Assembly (NCBI GenBank): GCA_025774805.1
Contig: JALGZR010000148.1
Span: 1 to 10,685, forward strand
Reading direction: 5' to 3'
From: a bacterium
Lineage (GTDB): Bacteria > ARS69
DNA: 10,685 nucleotides
Positions within the stretch are counted from its first letter, which is position 1, and the number at the start of each line of letters is the position of its first letter. Shown piece by piece: positions 299-10,414 of this stretch. The notes under the pieces were generated by a model that saw nothing but the letters and a program-made list of their open reading frames with translations, was not told where the DNA came from and did not search any database. The translations under genes and the position numbers were made by a program.

Positions 299-1906
299 GT
301 GGCACGTGTCGTGGGAGCGCTGGCCGCCGTGATCCTCCTCGGCGGCTGTGCCGGGGGAGGATCCGGAAGCAGCGGGCCGGCCATCGACCTGACGAGCACG
401 GTCCCGGCTCCCGAGACCTTCGACGACGTCGATCTCGAGCACCTGCGTTGGGCGCTCACGGGAGAGGAGCAGGAGGTCTTCCTCGCACTTCCCGTCCCGG
501 AGCGTGAGGAGTTCATGCGCGTCCGCTGGGCCGCCCTCGATCCGACGCCGACCACTCCCGAGAACGAGCGACGCCGCGAGCACTACCAGCGTCTGGCCTA
601 CGCGCGGGAGCACTTCGCCCGGGATGAGCCCCCCGGCTGGGACCGGCGGGGCGAGTTGCTCCTGCGGTACGGCGCTCCGGACCAGCGCCGGGAGATTTCG
701 GGGGACGTCATCCCCGGGCTCGGTCTCGTCCCCCCGAAGGAGATCTGGATCTACACGTGGCTCCGGCTCGCTTTCGAGCTCGAGGACGCCATGTTTCAGG
801 GCGACTTCCAGGATGCCCACGGTCGCCGCCAGACGACGCGGGAGGACATCCTCGTCGATCGTTCGAACTTGTCACGGCCCGAGCCTCCGGGCCTCAGAAC
901 GAAGCGGGACGAGATCCGGGTGCGCAGTATCGATGAGCTGGCGGCCGATGCCGAGGAACCGCCCGCGCATGCGTGGGGTCCGTATCAGCCGGTCGACGCC
1001 GAGGAGGAGTTCCTCCGGGAGCGGCTCCTGACCATGGTGTCGAAGGGCCAGGTCGCGCTCGACGAGAAGCGCCAGGCGTTCCACCACGATTACGGCGGAG
1101 AGCAGCTCGAGTTCGCGTTCGACGTCGTCAACTTCTCCGCGAAACGTTCGGGGCTCACTCGCCTCGAGGTGCACACGGCGTTCCGGGCCGAGGATCTCGG
1201 CTACGTGCCCGAGGGCGGCGGGCAGAGCGCCGTTCTGGGCTCGAGCGCGGTGGTCAAGACCCGGGACTACCGAACGGTGGCACGCCGGGATCAGGTGTCC
1301 CGACCCCGCCAGGAGTCGTTGGAGGAACGGACCGGTCGACTCGTGCTCGACCAGATCGTGCTCGAGCTCGAGCCGGGGAAGCGCCGGCTGGCCCTCTCGG
1401 TCCGGGACAGCGTGACCTCCCGGGTGGGAATCTTCGACACGGAGATCGACGTTCGCGACTTCAGCCGGGATAGGCTGGCGCTGTCCGACATCCAGATCGC
1501 CCTCGACGTGAGCTCCGCCCGGGAGGGCGCGCCCTTCCGGAAGGGAGGACTCCAGGTCGTTCCCTTTCCCCTGTCCACGTTTCCGAAAGAACGGGACATC
1601 TACCTGTACTTCGAGATCTACGGACTCACCCCGAGCCCGGAGGGGAATCGGCTCTACACGGTGGAGTTCATGGTCCGCCCCCGGACCGTGAAGACGTCCT
1701 CTTGGTTCGGGAGCTCCCGGGGTCAGATCATCCCCGGGGTGGCGACGTCCTACGACGGCGAGTCCGAGGCAACGGTCGTTCAGGAGTACTTCGCGTTCGA
1801 CACCCGGACGTTCGTCGAGGACCTGTACGACGTCGAGATCACGGTGATCGACCGGATTTCGGAGCGCAAAACGGTTCGGCGGGTCTCGTTCGCGGTCCAG
1901 GAGTAA
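299..1906 (+). CDS. GWxTD-domain lipoprotein
   Basis: Predicted lipoprotein of 535 residues. The N-terminus has a short hydrophobic stretch and a lipobox, LLGGC, with the lipidated cysteine at residue 17, followed by a Gly/Ser-rich spacer, so it should be membrane-anchored outside the cytoplasm. Residues about 45-170 fit the GWxTD domain: a tryptophan/arginine-rich helix, then DPTPTTPENE (81-90), EHYQRLAYA (94-102), GW at 113-114, and RYGAPD (123-128) followed by an IWIYTW stretch. The hallmark T-D of GWxTD is R-R here. Residues about 240-535 are beta-rich, with LSDIQIA and YFEIYGL segments usual in the C-terminal half of this family. The biochemical role of the family is unknown. The GTG start is chosen because the lipobox follows at the proper distance; GGAAAGGGG lies 8-17 nt upstream. 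The gene converges on the next one, with only 23 bp between stops. Confidence 0.85.
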   Translation: MARVVGALAAVILLGGCAGGGSGSSGPAIDLTSTVPAPETFDDVDLEHLRWALTGEEQEVFLALPVPEREEFMRVRWAALDPTPTTPENERRREHYQRLAYAREHFARDEPPGWDRRGELLLRYGAPDQRREISGDVIPGLGLVPPKEIWIYTWLRLAFELEDAMFQGDFQDAHGRRQTTREDILVDRSNLSRPEPPGLRTKRDEIRVRSIDELAADAEEPPAHAWGPYQPVDAEEEFLRERLLTMVSKGQVALDEKRQAFHHDYGGEQLEFAFDVVNFSAKRSGLTRLEVHTAFRAEDLGYVPEGGGQSAVLGSSAVVKTRDYRTVARRDQVSRPRQESLEERTGRLVLDQIVLELEPGKRRLALSVRDSVTSRVGIFDTEIDVRDFSRDRLALSDIQIALDVSSAREGAPFRKGGLQVVPFPLSTFPKERDIYLYFEIYGLTPSPEGNRLYTVEFMVRPRTVKTSSWFGSSRGQIIPGVATSYDGESEATVVQEYFAFDTRTFVEDLYDVEITVIDRISERKTVRRVSFAVQE

Positions 1907-1929
1907 AGCGCGCCCCGCCTCGGCGTCGC

Positions 1930-3456
1930 TCAGCGTCGCTTCGGACTGCGCGTGTTCTTCGGCGAAGGTCTCGGCGACCTCCCGCTCGGCTTCGCCGGAG
2001 ACGGGGACTTGGACTTCGGGCGGACCGAAGGCTTCGGCGGGGGTGAAGACTTCGGCTTCGGTCGAACCGTAGGCTTCGGCTGGGGCTGGACCTTCGGTCG
2101 CTCCGGGCTCGGCTTCGACGGACTCACCCCGGGCTTCGACTCCGGCTTCGACGGCTTCGGCTTCACCACCCTCGGAGTCACCTTCCTCGGAGTCTCCCCC
2201 GCGCCCCGCTCCGACCCGGACCTCGGCTTCCGCTCCACCTTCCCGGGCCGGTCGCTCTCTTTCGGTGCAAGCGGGACGGAGGTCTTCCCCGAGGGCCGGA
2301 GGACCCTCTTCTTGGGTGGCGTCACGATACGAGCCGGTTTGCGCTCGACGCGCACCGGCGTGCGAACCCGGGTCGGCGGTCTCCTCTCGACCTTCACCGG
2401 GGTCCGCTCCCGGTAACGACCACGGTCTCCCCGGTCGACCCGGGAGACCGGGACCCTCTGGTGATCCGCCCGCACGGGGCGCCGGATCCGATCCCGATCC
2501 GTCATCCGTCGATCCGCGTCCGCCATGAGGACCCGGTCCTTGCGGACCTTCCGCCGTTCCGAGGGATCCCGGGACGCGAGCTCCTTGCGGATTCCGGAGA
2601 CGTCTCCCCCCTTCGGGACCTTCAGGCCGGAGTGGACGAGCTTGCCCGAGTGGCCTCCGGTGCGACGGGTCTTGTACTTCCTGTCGCTGAGATGGCCGTG
2701 CCGCCCCGCATAGTAGTCCCCGTGCCCGTCCCAGTAGTCGTAGTAGTGCCCGTCATAGTACCCGTGGTAGTGCCCGTGTCCGTGATGGTAACCGTGCCGG
2801 TACCATCCGTACCATCCGCCGTAGTAGGCGTAGCCGTAGTGCGAGCCGCAGTAGAGACGGTAGCCGTAGTAGGGGTAGCCGTAGCAGTAGCGCGCCGTGT
2901 ACCAGGCGGGGTACCAGTACCCGTATCCGTGCACGTAGGAGACGCGGTAGGGCGGGAAGCTCCAGCCCCAGTACCAGTAGTCGTCCCAGTAGTAGTCGTA
3001 CCACCACGAGGGGTATCCCCAGTTGAGGGAGTAGTGGTAGACGACGGTCGGCTCCGTCTCCTCCTCGATGACGTTCACCCACTCCGACTCCCCCGTGTCG
3101 AGCTCGGGGTACCACTCGTAGTCTTCGTAGTCCTGTCCCGTCGCCTCGTCTTCCGAGAGATCCCCCGACTCATCCTCGGGATCGGCCTCAGGGAACGCCG
3201 TGTCGACCATGAATTGGATGAGACGATCGGAGAGCCCGGCCTCCTTGAGTCGGAGGAGCTCGTCGACGCTCAGCTCGAAGACCGTGCCGGTCACGACGAT
3301 CTCGGAGATGATGACGTCGTCCGAGAGCCCGGCGTTGTGCAGGCGCAAGACGTCGTCGACCGACAGCGCGGAGTCGAGATCGTAGGGACCGGCGGCGAGA
3401 GCGCCCGGGATCAAAAGCACGAGCAGGGTGGCCAACCAGCGAGTCCGGGACCTCAT
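1930..3456 (-). CDS. Secreted low-complexity protein: Tyr/Trp/Gly/His-rich core and basic Pro/Lys/Arg tail
   Basis: Family not recognised. The ATG at 3456 gives 508 residues. It is preferred to upstream in-frame starts because AAAGGAGAT lies 6 nt before it and a signal peptide follows at once (residues 1-22, RTRW then LLVLLIPGALAA). Residues about 31-55 and 62-84 are two copies of one short helical motif (SVDDVLRLHNAGLSDDVI and SVDELLRLKEAGLSDRLI). Residues 87-135 are acidic. Residues 138-255 are dominated by Tyr, Trp, Gly and His, for example WWYDYYWDDYWYWGW (151-165) and GYHHGHGHYHGYY (222-234). Residues 258-508 are strongly basic and, toward the end, built of irregular P-K-P-S repeats resembling histone H1 tails. 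A near-consensus promoter lies 58 nt upstream. Plausible roles are envelope association, metal binding by His, polyanion binding by the tail, or adhesion; none is demonstrated. Antisense frames are open across much of it because of base composition. Confidence 0.8.
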   Translation of the reverse strand: MRSRTRWLATLLVLLIPGALAAGPYDLDSALSVDDVLRLHNAGLSDDVIISEIVVTGTVFELSVDELLRLKEAGLSDRLIQFMVDTAFPEADPEDESGDLSEDEATGQDYEDYEWYPELDTGESEWVNVIEEETEPTVVYHYSLNWGYPSWWYDYYWDDYWYWGWSFPPYRVSYVHGYGYWYPAWYTARYCYGYPYYGYRLYCGSHYGYAYYGGWYGWYRHGYHHGHGHYHGYYDGHYYDYWDGHGDYYAGRHGHLSDRKYKTRRTGGHSGKLVHSGLKVPKGGDVSGIRKELASRDPSERRKVRKDRVLMADADRRMTDRDRIRRPVRADHQRVPVSRVDRGDRGRYRERTPVKVERRPPTRVRTPVRVERKPARIVTPPKKRVLRPSGKTSVPLAPKESDRPGKVERKPRSGSERGAGETPRKVTPRVVKPKPSKPESKPGVSPSKPSPERPKVQPQPKPTVRPKPKSSPPPKPSVRPKSKSPSPAKPSGRSPRPSPKNTRSPKRR

Positions 3457-3682: not shown

Positions 3683-3711
3683 TTGACGTCCCGCCGGGCG
3701 GTGCCTAGCCT
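3683..3711 (+). promoter_or_regulatory. Candidate promoter for cutA-moeA (TTGACG, N17, TAGCCT)
   Basis: TTGACG (3683-3688) and TAGCCT (3706-3711) are separated by 17 bases. The -10 keeps the T, A and final T of the consensus. The same TAGCCTG box at the same spacing precedes tnaA, which raises confidence that this is the organism's usual promoter form. Transcription would start near 3718 and leave a leader of about 155 nt before cutA. The -10 lies in the loop of a small GGTGC/GCACC hairpin (3700-3716). Confidence 0.5.
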
Positions 3712-3719
3712 GCACCCCT

Positions 3720-3817
3720 CGGCGGGCTCGTCGCGAGGCCTCCCGCCGTCGCGATGCAACGGGGGGATATCGACGGACCGGGCCTCGAGATCCCTCGCGG
3801 TGACCTGACTCCCCCCG
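3720..3817 (+). promoter_or_regulatory. Foldable mRNA leader upstream of cutA-moeA
   Basis: Two stems lie back to back between the predicted start of transcription and cutA. Stem one pairs CGGCGGG (3720-3726) with CCCGCCG (3742-3748), and inside it CTCG (3727-3730) with CGAG (3734-3737). Stem two pairs CGGGGGGA (3760-3767) with TCCCCCCG (3810-3817) and encloses 42 nt with further short complementarities. It could be a regulatory leader; a molybdenum-cofactor RNA element is conceivable because moeA is downstream, but I cannot match it to that or any other known riboswitch. Chance folding is also possible in DNA this GC-rich. Confidence 0.35.
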
Positions 3818-5911: not shown

Positions 5912-7477
5912 TCAGATCGGGTGGGTCGCACCCCCCGTCAGCGAGCGCCAGACCAGGAGCAGGCCGAACAGCATCACGACCGTCGCCGATGCGATTCCGA
6001 GGTTGGTCATGAAGCTCCCCCCCGGAATGTAACGGTCGAAGAGCCGGCGCGCCGTGACGAACATCGCCCCGACCCCGAACAGGACCACGGCCAGTCCGAG
6101 ACTGAACGCGACAATCAGGAGAAGCCCGAACGCGATGCGCCCGAGCGCGACGGCCGCCAGCAGGACGACGATCCCTCCCGAGCAGGGGACCAGGCCCCCG
6201 CTGATCCCCAGGGCGAGGATGCTCCCGAGCGTCGCCTTCCCCTGCGGCACGTGCGTGTGCGTCCCTCCTCCTTCGGAGGCGGCCTCGATGGCCGGGTCGG
6301 GCGTTTGCGAAAGGGGATGGGGATGGTCGTGCGCGTGCGCGTGCGCGTGCCGCGGCGCGCTCGCCGATGCCCGTGGGGCGGCCCGGGCGGCTCCACGCTC
6401 GCGGAGGCGGGCCCGCAACATCCACCCGCCTACCGCTGCGATCAGGAGACCGGAGACGAGTCCCAGTCGGGGCAGAAGGGCCTCCGGCACGATGAACCGG
6501 GACAGGAAGAGAGCGACGATCCCGAGGAGGAACACGCTGAACGTGTGCGTGAGGGTCACGATCAACCCGAGGGCGGCGGCCTGGGCGAGGGTCCCTCGTG
6601 TGCCGACGAGGTAGGCGCCCACGACCGCCTTTCCGTGTCCCGGTTCGAGGGCGTGACCCGCTCCGAGCAAGAACGCCAGCAGAAGAGACAGAGCGATCAC
6701 GCCCGGAGTCAGATCCTCGGCCCGGACGAGCGCGACGAACGGATCCTTTCGTCCCTCGGTCCCGAAACCGGGTGGGGGCTCGAAACCGGCGGCACCGGGG
6801 GTCTCCGGCTCCGGTGCGGTCAGTCCCGGACCGAAGTGACACCACGCCTTCGTATCACGGGGAGGGTTGTAGAGATACTCCTCGGGGTACTCCGAGAGCT
6901 CGTTGCTGCGCAGCAGGCTCCCCAGCGAGGAGCTGCCGATCCCGATGCCCCCGAGACCCGTGATCCGGATCTCCTTCCAGCCGTCCCGCCGGTCGTCGTT
7001 CGAGTCATTCCAGACGAGGAAGTTCTTCGAACGGAGAAGGTCTTCCGGCAGCTCCGCCCGCAACTGCCACGCGATCCGGACGGTGCTGAGTCCTCCCTCG
7101 CCGGGGGGAAAGGTGACATGGCTCCAGATCCGCCGCAGCGGCACGCGCGTGCCGTTCACCTCGAGCCGGAGGCGAGGGAGGACCTGCTCCGTCTTCTCGT
7201 CGAGGTAGGCCTCCCGCTCCTCGGGGGTGACGAGATCGTCGCTATCGGAATCGATGCGGTCGAGCTCGGGCACGGAGGGGATCTCCGCGTAGTCGAGAAG
7301 GAACTTCACGCCGATTTCGCGGGGTCCGATCTCCAATCCCGCGTAATGACTCACGGAGACGTTTCCCATGGGGTGGGCCGCCGCGGGCGAGGTCGAGATC
7401 GCCCCCGCGAAAAGGGCCAGAGCCATCGCCCTCGGTCGGCCCGGCCGGGGACGGGACCGAGCTCGTTCGCGGCTCAC
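5912..7477 (-). CDS. NicO/RcnA-family nickel/cobalt transporter with an extracytoplasmic N-terminal domain
   Basis: Predicted inner-membrane transporter of 521 residues. NicO-family proteins move Ni2+ or Co2+; direction cannot be told from sequence. Residues 1-34 form a signal peptide (arginine-rich, then MALALFAGAISTSPAAA), leaving a mature N-terminus HPMGN. Residues 35-250 are a soluble domain with GWKEI (166-170) and an EF-hand-like loop at 76-87 (D76, D78, D80, T84, E87). Membrane segments lie at about 257-275, 297-325, 334-355, 415-445, 447-475 and 493-512. The family signature HALEPGHGKAVVGAYLVG is at 275-292, with THT at 310-312 and GGLVPCSGGIVVLLAA at 427-442. A His-rich loop, RHAHAHAHDHPHP (376-388), separates the two membrane halves. 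The GTG start overlaps the upstream gene's stop in a 4-nt GTGA (7474-7477), which decides it over the earlier in-frame start at 7540. Two genes appear translationally coupled. Confidence 0.87.
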   Translation of the reverse strand: MSRERARSRPRPGRPRAMALALFAGAISTSPAAAHPMGNVSVSHYAGLEIGPREIGVKFLLDYAEIPSVPELDRIDSDSDDLVTPEEREAYLDEKTEQVLPRLRLEVNGTRVPLRRIWSHVTFPPGEGGLSTVRIAWQLRAELPEDLLRSKNFLVWNDSNDDRRDGWKEIRITGLGGIGIGSSSLGSLLRSNELSEYPEEYLYNPPRDTKAWCHFGPGLTAPEPETPGAAGFEPPPGFGTEGRKDPFVALVRAEDLTPGVIALSLLLAFLLGAGHALEPGHGKAVVGAYLVGTRGTLAQAAALGLIVTLTHTFSVFLLGIVALFLSRFIVPEALLPRLGLVSGLLIAAVGGWMLRARLRERGAARAAPRASASAPRHAHAHAHDHPHPLSQTPDPAIEAASEGGGTHTHVPQGKATLGSILALGISGGLVPCSGGIVVLLAAVALGRIAFGLLLIVAFSLGLAVVLFGVGAMFVTARRLFDRYIPGGSFMTNLGIASATVVMLFGLLLVWRSLTGGATHPI

Positions 7478-8493
7478 CGCGCGGGCTCCGCGCCGGGCTT
7501 TCCGGCGTGCCGGTCGACCGCCTCCTTCATCTCCCGCCACGCCGCCTCCGGATCGCCGCAGCTCAGAGAGCTCATCCGCTCGGTTGCCCGGAAGCTCCAG
7601 AAGGAGACGAGATCGGGCTCGAGCTTGGCCGCGGCGAGGACCGCGCTCCGGATCGCGCTCTCCCGACCCGCGGGAATCCGGATTCCCTGAATCCAGATCT
7701 CCGCCTCCCTTCCCGCCCTCCTCGCGATCTCCACGAGAGGACGCCCCCTCTCGGACACGTACGCGCCGGGGTCCACCGGCCGATCCATCCAGTAGGGGTC
7801 GGTTCCCAGACGGGCGATCCCCTCGAGAGCCTCAAAGGCCGACCAGTCGTCCGTGCCGCCGCCGGCGTAGTCGAAGCGGGGCAGCAGACAGAGGCTGTGG
7901 CGGACGCCGGAGTCCCGGACCGCGGCGATGCCCCCTTCCAGAAGTCGCGCCAGCGACGCGGTACGGAAGGAGGTCAGCTCGGCGGTTCCCTCCGGCGGCA
8001 GTTCCGCCTCTCCGGACGTCTCCCTCCAGGTCGCACGGCATGCGGCGCATCGACAGGCGGGCCGGGGCTTCGCGGCACGAAAAGCCCCGAGGTAGAAATG
8101 GGGCTCGTCCCAGAACAGGACGTCGGCGCCCAGACCGGCGGCGGTCCGGGCCCAACGGTGGATGAGTCCCCGCGTGGCCTCGGCGTTCGGGCAGCAGACC
8201 GGCAGGGAATCGCCGGCGGCGTCGACCTGACGGGCCGAGAGGTCGGTGAGGGCGAGCTCCGAGTACGCCTCTCCTCCGAACAGGCCCGCCACCCCCCACG
8301 GATCGAGAGCGGACTCCAGACCCCGGTCCCGGGTCTCCTCGACGATGCGGCCCACGTCCTCGACGTGAAAGCGCAGGTCGTGCTCGGAAAACGTGTGGGT
8401 GACAGCGGCGAAACCCGCTTCGGCGATTTCGTCCAGGTCCCGACGAACGTGGCGCGGGTCTCGCACTCCGAAGTAGCTGACTCCGAACCGCAT
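7474..8493 (-). CDS. TIM-barrel-like protein of unknown function, glycosidase-like in style
   Basis: Family not firmly recognised; 339 residues, cytoplasmic with no signal peptide. The alternation of strands and helices suggests a (beta/alpha)8 barrel: MRFGVSYFG (1-9), helix 13-26, FAAVTHTFSE (28-37), ESALDPWGVAGLFGG (60-74), ADVLFWDEPHFY (123-134), HSLCLLPRFDY (199-209), LGTDPYWM (229-236) and EIWIQGIRIP (265-274). WDEPH (128-132), with an acidic pair at a strand end, looks catalytic in the manner of glycoside hydrolases. A cysteine cluster CRCAACRATW (147-156), seen in some putative glycosidases, may bind metal; CC occurs at 100-101. The ATG at 8493 follows GGGAGA by 6 nt and opens directly into the first strand, so it is preferred to longer in-frame starts that read through the divergent intergenic region. 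The stop overlaps the NicO start. Confidence 0.75.
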   Translation of the reverse strand: MRFGVSYFGVRDPRHVRRDLDEIAEAGFAAVTHTFSEHDLRFHVEDVGRIVEETRDRGLESALDPWGVAGLFGGEAYSELALTDLSARQVDAAGDSLPVCCPNAEATRGLIHRWARTAAGLGADVLFWDEPHFYLGAFRAAKPRPACRCAACRATWRETSGEAELPPEGTAELTSFRTASLARLLEGGIAAVRDSGVRHSLCLLPRFDYAGGGTDDWSAFEALEGIARLGTDPYWMDRPVDPGAYVSERGRPLVEIARRAGREAEIWIQGIRIPAGRESAIRSAVLAAAKLEPDLVSFWSFRATERMSSLSCGDPEAAWREMKEAVDRHAGKPGAEPAR

Positions 8494-8584
8494 CGTCCAT
8501 CTCCCGTCCGCCGTCTCGATCCGTCCCCGAGGCCGGGCCGACCTCGACCGCGTCCCGCCCACCCTAGCCCTTTCCCCCTCTCCC

Positions 8585-8625: not shown

Positions 8626-8654
8626 TTGACACGCTTCTCCACGCCCATTAGCCT
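8626..8654 (+). promoter_or_regulatory. Promoter for tnaA (TTGACA, N17, TAGCCT)
   Basis: A perfect TTGACA (8626-8631) and TAGCCT (8649-8654) are spaced by 17 bases. The predicted start is near 8661, right at the left foot of the long palindrome, so the tnaA leader would be about 210 nt. The same -10 hexamer and spacing appear before cutA. Confidence 0.6.
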
Positions 8655-8655
8655 G

Positions 8656-8830
8656 GCCTGCAAGTCTCACCAGCCTCTGCTGCGGCAGCGGCTCGCCGTG
8701 CCTGGCATCGTCGCTGGCGCGCTTCCGCCCTGCGACGGGGCTACGGCCCCGCCTCGGGCGAATGCACCCCATCTGCTCGCCAGACACGACGAACCACAGC
8801 CTCGCGACGAGCCTGGTGAGAAATGCAGGC
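8656..8830. repeat. Long imperfect palindrome (element B) forming the tnaA leader region
   Basis: The two arms pair along almost their whole length around a central loop TACG (8742-8745). Foot: GCCTGCA (8656-8662) with TGCAGGC (8824-8830), then TCTCACCAG (8665-8673) with CTGGTGAGA (8813-8821). Middle: 8688-8707 with 8778-8797, 15 of 20 Watson-Crick. Upper: 8721-8730 with 8756-8765, 8 of 10. Apex: CGGGGC (8736-8741) with GCCCCG (8746-8751). All five mismatches in the middle block are C opposite A or A opposite C, which become G-U pairs in RNA copied from the minus strand. In the plus direction it occupies the tnaA leader. No Trp-rich leader peptide like TnaC is evident. It could be a structured RNA, a regulatory leader or a foldback mobile element. 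Confidence 0.75.
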
Positions 8831-8870
8831 TCGCCCACTCTCGTTCGTTCCCCTCGGCCGAGGAACCTCC

Positions 8871-10208
8871 ATGTCGCTTCCTCCCTTCAAGATCAAGGTC
8901 GTGGAGCCGGTGAAGGTGAGGACCCGCGAAGAGCGCCTCGAGCAGGCGCGCCGGGCGGGTTTCAACCTCTTCCACATTCCCGCCGAGTACGTTTACGTCG
9001 ACCTGCTGACCGACAGCGGAACCTCCGCCATGAGCGCTTCCCAGTGGAGCGCGATGATGCACGGCGACGAAGCGTACGTCATCCCCACGCACCAGGGCCG
9101 TGCCGCGGAGCACCTCCTCTTCTCGGTTCTGGTGAAGCCGGGCGACATCGTCCCTTCGAACACGCACTTTGACACCACACGGGCGAATATCGAGGTCGCG
9201 GGGGGCGAGGCGGTCGATCTCGCGATCGACGAGGCCCTCGATCTCCACTCCGACCACCCCTTCAAGGGGAACATCGACGTCGAGAAGGTCGAGAACCTGA
9301 TCGAACGAAAGGGGAAGGAGAACATCCCACTGAGCATGCTCACCCTCACGAACAACACGGGAGGGGGGCAGCCGGTCTCCATGGAGAACCTCGCGCGTCT
9401 CCACGCGTTGCTCTTCCGACACGGAATCCCGCTGTTCATCGATGCATGCCGCTTCGCCGAGAACGCGTACTTCGTTCGCGAGCGCGAGGGGGCTCACTCG
9501 GGGCGCTCGATCCTCGACATCACCGCCGATACGTTCGCGCTCGCGGACGGGTGCACGATGAGCGCGAAGAAGGACGGTTTGGTGAACATCGGGGGGTTCC
9601 TCGCGCTCCACGAGGGGGATCTCGCGCGCCGCATCAAGGAGCGGCTCGTCCTCTACGAGGGATTCGAGACGTACGGCGGTCTCGCCGGCCGGGACCTCGA
9701 GGCGGTGGCGGTCGGACTCGAGGAGGTCGTCGACATTCACTACCTCGCCCACCGGATCGAACAGGTCGCCTATCTGGGGGAGGGACTCCGCCGGGCCGGG
9801 GTTCCGGTGCTCGTTCCCTTCGGCGGGCACGCCGTCTACGTCGACGCCGCCTCCTTCCTGCCGCACATCCCGAGGGAGCACTTCCCGGGGCAGGCGCTCT
9901 CCGTCGCCCTCTACCTCGATTCGGGAATACGGACCGTGGAGATCGGGGGCGTGATGTTCGGGAAGACCGATCGGGAGACGGGAGAGGTGGTCTTCCCCAA
10001 ACTGGAGCTGGTCCGGTTCGCCGTGCCCCGTCGTGTCTACATGCGCGAGCACCTCGACTTCGCGATCGAGAGCGTCGTCGAGCTCTACCGTCGCCGGGAC
10101 AGCGTCACGGGGTACGAGTTCGAGTATCAGGCCGACGTCCTCCGTCATTTCACGGCCCGGTTCCGTCCGGTCGGCGCCGGCAGCAAGAGCCAGGTCTCGC
10201 CCGTCTGA
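8871..10208 (+). CDS. tnaA: Tryptophanase (beta-eliminating lyase) with an internal 21-residue deletion
   Basis: Tryptophanase is a PLP enzyme splitting L-tryptophan into indole, pyruvate and ammonia in the cytoplasm. Clear family motifs: PFKIKVVEPV (5-14), DLLTDSGTSAMS (44-55), GDEAY (65-69), IPTHQGRAAE (71-80), NNTGGGQPVS (161-170), DACRFAENAY (191-200), MSAKKDGLVNIGG (230-242) with K234 the likely PLP lysine, YGGLAGRD (268-275), GGHAV (318-322) and LRHFTARF (424-431). Much of the sequence resembles tyrosine phenol-lyase, but three specificity positions are tryptophanase-type: Asp101, Ile358 and His426. The protein has 445 residues, against 471 in E. coli. By recalled alignment the difference is mainly one gap: E. 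coli residues 75-95 are absent between GDEAY and IPTHQGR. The active-site Tyr (E. coli Tyr74, here Tyr69) remains. Activity is therefore doubtful unless the gap is an assembly artefact. The ATG is chosen because CGAGGA lies 6 nt upstream and homology starts at once. Confidence 0.9.
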   Translation: MSLPPFKIKVVEPVKVRTREERLEQARRAGFNLFHIPAEYVYVDLLTDSGTSAMSASQWSAMMHGDEAYVIPTHQGRAAEHLLFSVLVKPGDIVPSNTHFDTTRANIEVAGGEAVDLAIDEALDLHSDHPFKGNIDVEKVENLIERKGKENIPLSMLTLTNNTGGGQPVSMENLARLHALLFRHGIPLFIDACRFAENAYFVREREGAHSGRSILDITADTFALADGCTMSAKKDGLVNIGGFLALHEGDLARRIKERLVLYEGFETYGGLAGRDLEAVAVGLEEVVDIHYLAHRIEQVAYLGEGLRRAGVPVLVPFGGHAVYVDAASFLPHIPREHFPGQALSVALYLDSGIRTVEIGGVMFGKTDRETGEVVFPKLELVRFAVPRRVYMREHLDFAIESVVELYRRRDSVTGYEFEYQADVLRHFTARFRPVGAGSKSQVSPV

Positions 10209-10253: not shown

Positions 10254-10275
10254 CCGGACCGAGGCCGGACCGAGG
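10254..10275. repeat. Perfect tandem duplication of an 11-bp unit
   Basis: CCGGACCGAGG occurs twice in direct succession (10254-10264 and 10265-10275), 46 nt after the tnaA stop. It looks like a recent slippage duplication; no function is apparent. Confidence 0.8.
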
Positions 10276-10280
10276 ATTGC

Positions 10281-10414
10281 CAGAATCTCCTAAAGAATGA
10301 CGCGAGGGCCAGGACGAGAATCCGGCGTCCGCAACACCTCACCGAGAATCCCCGAAATCTCCCAAAGAATTACTCGAGGGTAAGGACGACCATCCGGCGT
10401 CCGTAACCCCTCCC
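10281..10414. repeat. Two diverged 62-bp direct repeats with a 72-bp period
   Basis: 10281-10342 and 10353-10414 agree at 50 of 62 positions, with a 10-bp gap between them. The best conserved parts are AATCTCC, AAAGAAT, CGAGGG, AGGACGA and ATCCGGCGTCCG. The period is a multiple of three, so the minus-strand translation also repeats (RTPDGRPYPRVIL and RTPDSRPGPRVIL), but one copy is followed by a stop and no start or ribosome site supports a gene. Two long units with a short gap do not fit a CRISPR array. It is probably a family of intergenic repeats or paired binding sites. Confidence 0.75.

Follow-up and report, generated by a model that had tools for sequence, protein, structure and literature searches.

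A dispersed palindrome upstream of a tnaA-like gene is assigned to the IS1380-derived MITEs and carries a structured core found in several phyla

The window, that is, the whole stretch of DNA analysed here, comprises 10,685 nucleotides of a bacterial contig (JALGZR010000148.1). Toward its right-hand side, an imperfect palindrome occupies the intergenic region between two divergent genes, and the probable start codon of the tnaA-like gene lies 38 bp past it. The palindrome had been described from the sequence as spanning positions 8656-8830; the element proper is a little longer and extends over 8653-8833 when its CTAG-like ends are included. The features of the locus are as follows.

3705..3739, plus strand: CTAGCCTGCACCCCTCGGCGGGCTCGTCGCGAGGC, 35 nt, probably a solo end from a related element (33 nt match 8799-8831 in inverted orientation at 82%)
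7474..8496, minus strand: divergent neighbour, no match in a Pfam search
8653..8833, minus strand: whole element, about 181 nt (alignment with 40 further copies at 88-93% identity)
8830-8833 (CGAG) and 8653-8656 (CCAG), read on the minus strand: CTAG-like ends, CTAG in most copies
8813..8829, minus strand: terminal inverted repeat, 5' side, CCTGCATTTCTCACCAG (identical ends in >116 foreign stretches and in the complete IS1380 of locus L295)
8657..8673, minus strand: terminal inverted repeat, 3' side, CTGGTGAGACTTGCAGG (copy alignment and L295 ends)
8669..8817, minus strand: structured core (full-length match to covariance model R1, 58.8 bits, E 8.4e-14)
8800..8809, minus strand: lower internal loop, 5' strand, CGTCGCGAGG, conserved (UUCGU.GCGAGG in alignments A1 and A3)
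8676..8685, minus strand: lower internal loop, 3' strand, CCGCAGCAGA, conserved in alignments A1 and A3
8729..8754, minus strand: apical hairpin AGGC-GGGGCC..GCCCC-GTCGCAGG, conserved, with a G-U wobble common to other families
8871..10208, plus strand: downstream neighbour, beta-eliminating lyase, tnaA-like (Pfam PF01212, E 1.3e-62)

The likely solo end at 3705-3739 belongs to a variant of the window element and stands beside a CTAG, and the sequence adjoining it is not element-like. Two further repeats were observed in the window. Positions 1-190, where the contig begins, hold a second dispersed palindromic family with 32-nt inverted ends and about 20 further genome copies at 80-97% identity; folding gave -90.6 and -109.0 kcal/mol for its two strands, and it does not match model R1. 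Near the contig end, positions 10269-10412 comprise two 72-bp tandem units of 81% identity.

The original prediction rested on the kind of mismatch within the palindrome, and a recount confirmed the pairing exactly. The block 8688-8707/8778-8797 contains 15 Watson-Crick pairs and exactly five C/A or A/C oppositions, and the two additional ones higher up are present as described (C/A at 8725/8761 and A/C at 8735/8752). A strand-neutral alignment of the whole copy gave 62 Watson-Crick pairs, eight pairs that become G-U in minus-strand RNA and two of the opposite type, so that the statement that no opposite case occurs is nearly, though not strictly, true. When both strands were folded, the minus-strand RNA (-139.4 kcal/mol, z -9.68) proved more stable than the plus-strand RNA (-100.2 kcal/mol, z -4.52), and none of 200 dinucleotide shuffles was as good in either case. 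The same strand is preferred in all 56 full-length genome copies examined, with means of -127 and -99 kcal/mol; the asymmetry of the window copy is thus inherited. No Rfam covariance model matched the window.

A search of the 5.1-Mb genome (284 contigs) with the palindrome region yielded 343-376 candidates at first look; the 40 that were scored share 88-93% identity across about 180 nt. The 20-nt end motif, with up to three mismatches allowed, occurs 303 times in the genome, compared with none for the reversed control. Within 1.04 Mb of larger contigs known to hold matches, from which only rough densities can be taken, 81 profile matches were found; 33 are near full length, and the remainder comprise solo ends and hairpins shortened to about 48-98 bp by joint truncation of the two arms. 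Solo ends are common in the genome, and back-to-back ends also occur beside full copies. The consensus ends read CTAG-CCTGCATTTCTCACC ... GGTGAGATATGCAGG-CTAG. With simple gene prediction, 90% of the sequence is coding, yet 29 of the 33 full copies fall between genes; tandem gene pairs revealed no orientation bias relative to genes (11 versus 8 for full-length copies and 15 versus 15 for short ones). An exact 25-mer of the element had no match in other named genomes. The window palindrome is therefore one copy of a non-autonomous transposon of about 180 bp with some 340 relatives in the genome. The foldback mobile element that had been offered as the alternative reading is borne out by these repeated copies together with the IS1380-type ends described below; dispersed copies were found, and loss of pairing conservation was not.

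The insertion sites point to CTAG as the target. This tetranucleotide is depleted 12-fold in 13 contigs of the genome (257 occurrences versus 3070 expected). About 40% of the CTAG that remains in those contigs lies at stop codons. Of 33 genes whose end coincides with an element border, 29 have a TAG stop, compared with about 30% overall, and that TAG is nearly always the one contained in the CTAG end of the element; a reading frame would still close at its unchanged place after insertion at a C-TAG stop. CTAG flanks both sides of the IS1380 at L295 and of many copies, and it is probably duplicated on insertion. However, CTAG is a preferred palindromic target, the left and right four bases often differ in the copies of the window's genome, and the deviants lack a left/right match, which counts against the preferred explanation.

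The ends could be attributed by comparison with insertion sequences elsewhere. Examples of IS1380 ends from other genomes are TAGCCCGGATATTTCATAA and CCCGGATTATTCACCA. The end pattern AGCCYGCATTTCTCACCRG occurs in more than 116 stretches of other genomes, whereas about 7 would be expected by chance from the size of the collection. These stretches, many of which are inverted pairs 50-353 bp apart, come from Gammaproteobacteria, 'Deltaproteobacteria', Acidobacteria, Verrucomicrobia, Planctomycetes, Eisenbacteria and others. At L295, in a Chromatiaceae MAG that also holds one element, lies a complete 1752-bp IS1380 (1338-3089; transposase E 1e-118) with AGCCCGCATTTCTCAC at both ends, as on the elements, and CTAG on both sides. 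On the strength of these identical ends and CTAG flanks, the element is filed here, by sequence comparison, as an IS1380-derived MITE; an earlier assignment of the ends to an unknown CTAG-targeting family was dropped once the IS1380 ends of other genomes had been compared. One terminal inverted repeat is common to an IS1380 and the core elements of one genome (G275/G303), the core elements of most other genomes carry IS1380-like ends of the CCCGGAT..TTCA type, and these IS1380-type ends vary in step, genome by genome. Intact IS1380 partners are present in other genomes that carry elements with these ends.

Several observations count against this assignment. In the window's own genome, the IS1380 transposase survives only as a 111-aa C-terminal remnant, which suggests that the autonomous partner has been lost or is absent from the assembly. 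The core was absent from the autonomous IS1380 elements that were tested. In addition, core elements of genomes G002 (GGCCGCGTTTCGTGGC), G053 (GATCTGCC), G179 (GCCCACTTGGCC) and G260 (GAGCCAATTGCAAAATTATG) carry other ends, which implies that IS1380 is not the sole mover. Two side observations concern these insertion sequences. The inverted repeat before the IS1380 transposase gene overlaps the start codon at L295 (1338-3089) and L304 (140-420), as AAGGCCGT..ACGGCCTT and CATCGGTTCTC..GAGAACCGATG. Elements of about 244 bp with identical ends and a different interior (GAGCGAAAAGCGTAGC..GCTACGGTTTGAGTGAAGAGC and relatives; L185, L191, L195, L201, L234, L236, L257 and others) are common to Gammaproteobacteria and Acidobacteria MAGs and possibly contain a second structured core.

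Many of the foreign elements share more than their ends. Their total length is near 180, and from foot to apex they comprise a terminal stem, a lower internal loop (consensus UUCGUMGCGAGG / CCGCAGYAGA), a long stem of variable sequence and an apical hairpin (consensus GCAGGCGUAC-loop-GUACGUCGAGGA; AGGC-hairpin-GUCGAGGAG in other families), in which pair 80/192 of alignment A2 is G-U in 28 of the 31 rows with letters. A covariance model, R1, built from eight foreign elements with the window's genome and its relatives excluded, matches the window copy (minus strand, E 8.4e-14) as well as a copy in another genus of the family (G002; E 5e-12). The model also matches a second core subfamily in the window's own genome. 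Copies of that subfamily lie at L098 10725-10876, L111 6902-7053, L115 5465-5616 and L315 1501-1653, the last with different IS1380-type ends (CCCGCACTGTTCGTGAA). The covariance search proposed with the original prediction found the core in other phyla with its pairing kept: 18 of 290 genomes, nearly all of different families, contain it, mostly in several copies each. The core motif was absent from the viral contigs searched, no Delta-type element was found in the plasmids searched, and 28 loci with homologues had no Rfam match up to E 0.5-1. The core copies at L308 and L323, from genomes G053 and G135, have tRNA genes nearby or on both sides.

Covariation was measured on 30 matches from the searched genomes, with 41-76% GC and sequences outside the model. 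In an alignment that was fitted to the structure, and in which pairing is thereby somewhat inflated, 86% of cells are paired, compared with 32-43% when slid; 55 of the 56 pairs show two-sided changes, and none of 500 shuffles reached any of five measures. These results show a rod-shaped core of about 150 nt and near-constant length that is kept across phyla by compensatory changes. The core appears to be the constant part of these elements and the ends the exchangeable part.

Since palindromic DNA would covary even without an RNA, the separating test is the comparison of G-U with A-C oppositions. The fitted alignment, with one row per family, contains 72 G-U and 16 A-C. A strand-neutral arm alignment that scores both mismatches alike gave 123 G-U and 42 A-C over 22 families, of which 17 favour G-U, one favours A-C and four are tied, and the motif strand folds better in all 22. 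In the family of the window's own genome, one-sided changes number 117 G-U and 81 A-C. Selection for G-U among these copies was considered and rejected because their loops carry the same excess of C>T over G>A, and the strand-biased decay suggested earlier is not supported by figures that follow that bias. The G-U bias thus seems to be old and to derive from founder lineages that spread, while settled copies decay without it. Taken together with the random orientation of the copies, this argues for a role in the life of the element and against per-site gene regulation. Of the original proposal that selection preserves a minus-strand RNA hairpin, the preferential pairing holds, upheld by compensatory change and by G-U across phyla, and the leader or antisense role does not. 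The apparent target of selection is the structure of the propagating element, not the neighbouring gene. RNA is the simplest reading of the strand-specific G-U; however, G-T is steadier than A-C in DNA as well, and a fold of single-stranded DNA on one strand would equally prefer G-T, which counts against the preferred explanation.

The best explanation as a whole, to which we assign a probability of roughly 0.6, is an IS1380-family MITE with a one-strand structured core that serves the element itself. In a feasible model, an IS1380 transposase supplied in trans would act on the ends with CTAG as the target, and insertion at a C-TAG stop codon would leave the gene intact. Where neighbouring transcription runs through a suitably oriented copy, the core would be read as RNA and would fold into a rod whose conserved internal loops may bind a protein, and this RNA could help the element in mobility, copy maintenance or evasion of host nucleases. 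Benefit to the element and not to the adjacent gene is suggested by the random gene orientation and by the lack of excess G-U-preserving change in settled copies. That the RNA acts for propagation, most likely through protein binding at the conserved internal loops, is a tentative proposal that stands somewhat below even odds.

Among the alternatives, a plain DNA palindrome deserves the most attention: an IS1380 MITE whose arms are complementary through quasipalindrome correction or because the transposase needs them, with strand irrelevant. Long hairpins are common in MITEs (PMC10969869), and compensatory changes occur within the own-genome family; for example, 13 copies have C-G in place of T-A at pair 7/176, and both intermediates are present. 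Such a palindrome is strand-blind, yet all 22 families favour one strand and G-U exceeds A-C by 123 to 42, and the unpaired loop sequences common to several phyla would be left unexplained; we therefore regard this explanation as disfavoured and unlikely. It is less probable still that the core is a host-useful RNA module which, carried in mRNA and cut by RNase III or E, sets the mRNA stability of neighbouring genes. Processing of this type has been reported for Correia and ERIC elements (PMC10969869), and copies often adjoin stop codons, but they lack orientation bias to genes, and no additional preservation of pairing was seen once copies had settled.

A REPIN- or BIME-like element moved by a RAYT (Y1 HUH) transposase acting on single-stranded hairpins would explain the strand preference, and solo and back-to-back ends do occur beside full copies. 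The ends, however, match IS1380, and no Y1 transposase (PF01797) was found in the gapped assembly of the window's genome, so that such an element is very improbable. Least credible of all is the locus-specific role first envisaged, namely a leader of the leftward TIM-barrel/NicO operon or an antisense RNA to the tnaA leader: the position between divergent genes would suit either, but hundreds of near-identical copies lie elsewhere in every context, and a dispersed mobile element without orientation bias to its neighbours fits neither.

The usual view of bacterial MITEs is of debris whose ends bind transposase and whose middle could be any sequence. By contrast, in the IS1380-type MITE favoured here the middle is the conserved part, in its length, its loops and its pairing strand from 41% to 76% GC, and the ends follow the local transposase; this suggests that the structure plays some part in the life of an element without coding capacity. 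To our knowledge, elements that combine exchangeable ends with a core conserved between phyla have not been described so far, and the open-access literature, outside which most subscription journals lie, contained no report that we could find of IS1380 MITEs that involve CTAG or contain a structured core. It is tempting to speculate, though we consider it somewhat less than an even chance, that these elements form an unrecognised cross-phylum class of mobile structured RNA, in which one rod core is combined mostly with IS1380 ends and with at least four other end types and the transcript is needed for spread. If so, a DNA transposon without any coding content would be under selection at the level of its RNA. 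The covariance model, in turn, lets hundreds of copies per genome be annotated in what is now unmarked intergenic sequence.

The element resembles the IS1380 family (NF033539 / PF13701) and IS-derived MITEs in its CCCG.AT..TTCAC terminal inverted repeats and CTAG flanks, and differs from autonomous IS1380 in lacking a transposase and in having a conserved structured core as its interior. Hairpin units that occur singly and in inverted pairs are shared with REP/REPIN sequences and their RAYTs, whereas the window element is a 180-nt rod with IS1380-type ends in a genome without a Y1 transposase. MITEs that fold as RNA are already known (PMC10969869). The Chunjie MITE of Geobacter uraniireducens (178-235 bp; PMC10969869), compared here by description only, is similar in size and likewise occurs as complete and partial copies at scattered sites. 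Also short and present in high copy number are the Correia (CREE/NEMIS) and ERIC elements, imperfect palindromes that lie between genes and are able to fold as RNA (PMC10969869). They are known from few genera, whereas the present core is found across phyla with exchangeable ends. The ends and the target of the Correia and ERIC elements also appear to differ from those of the window element.
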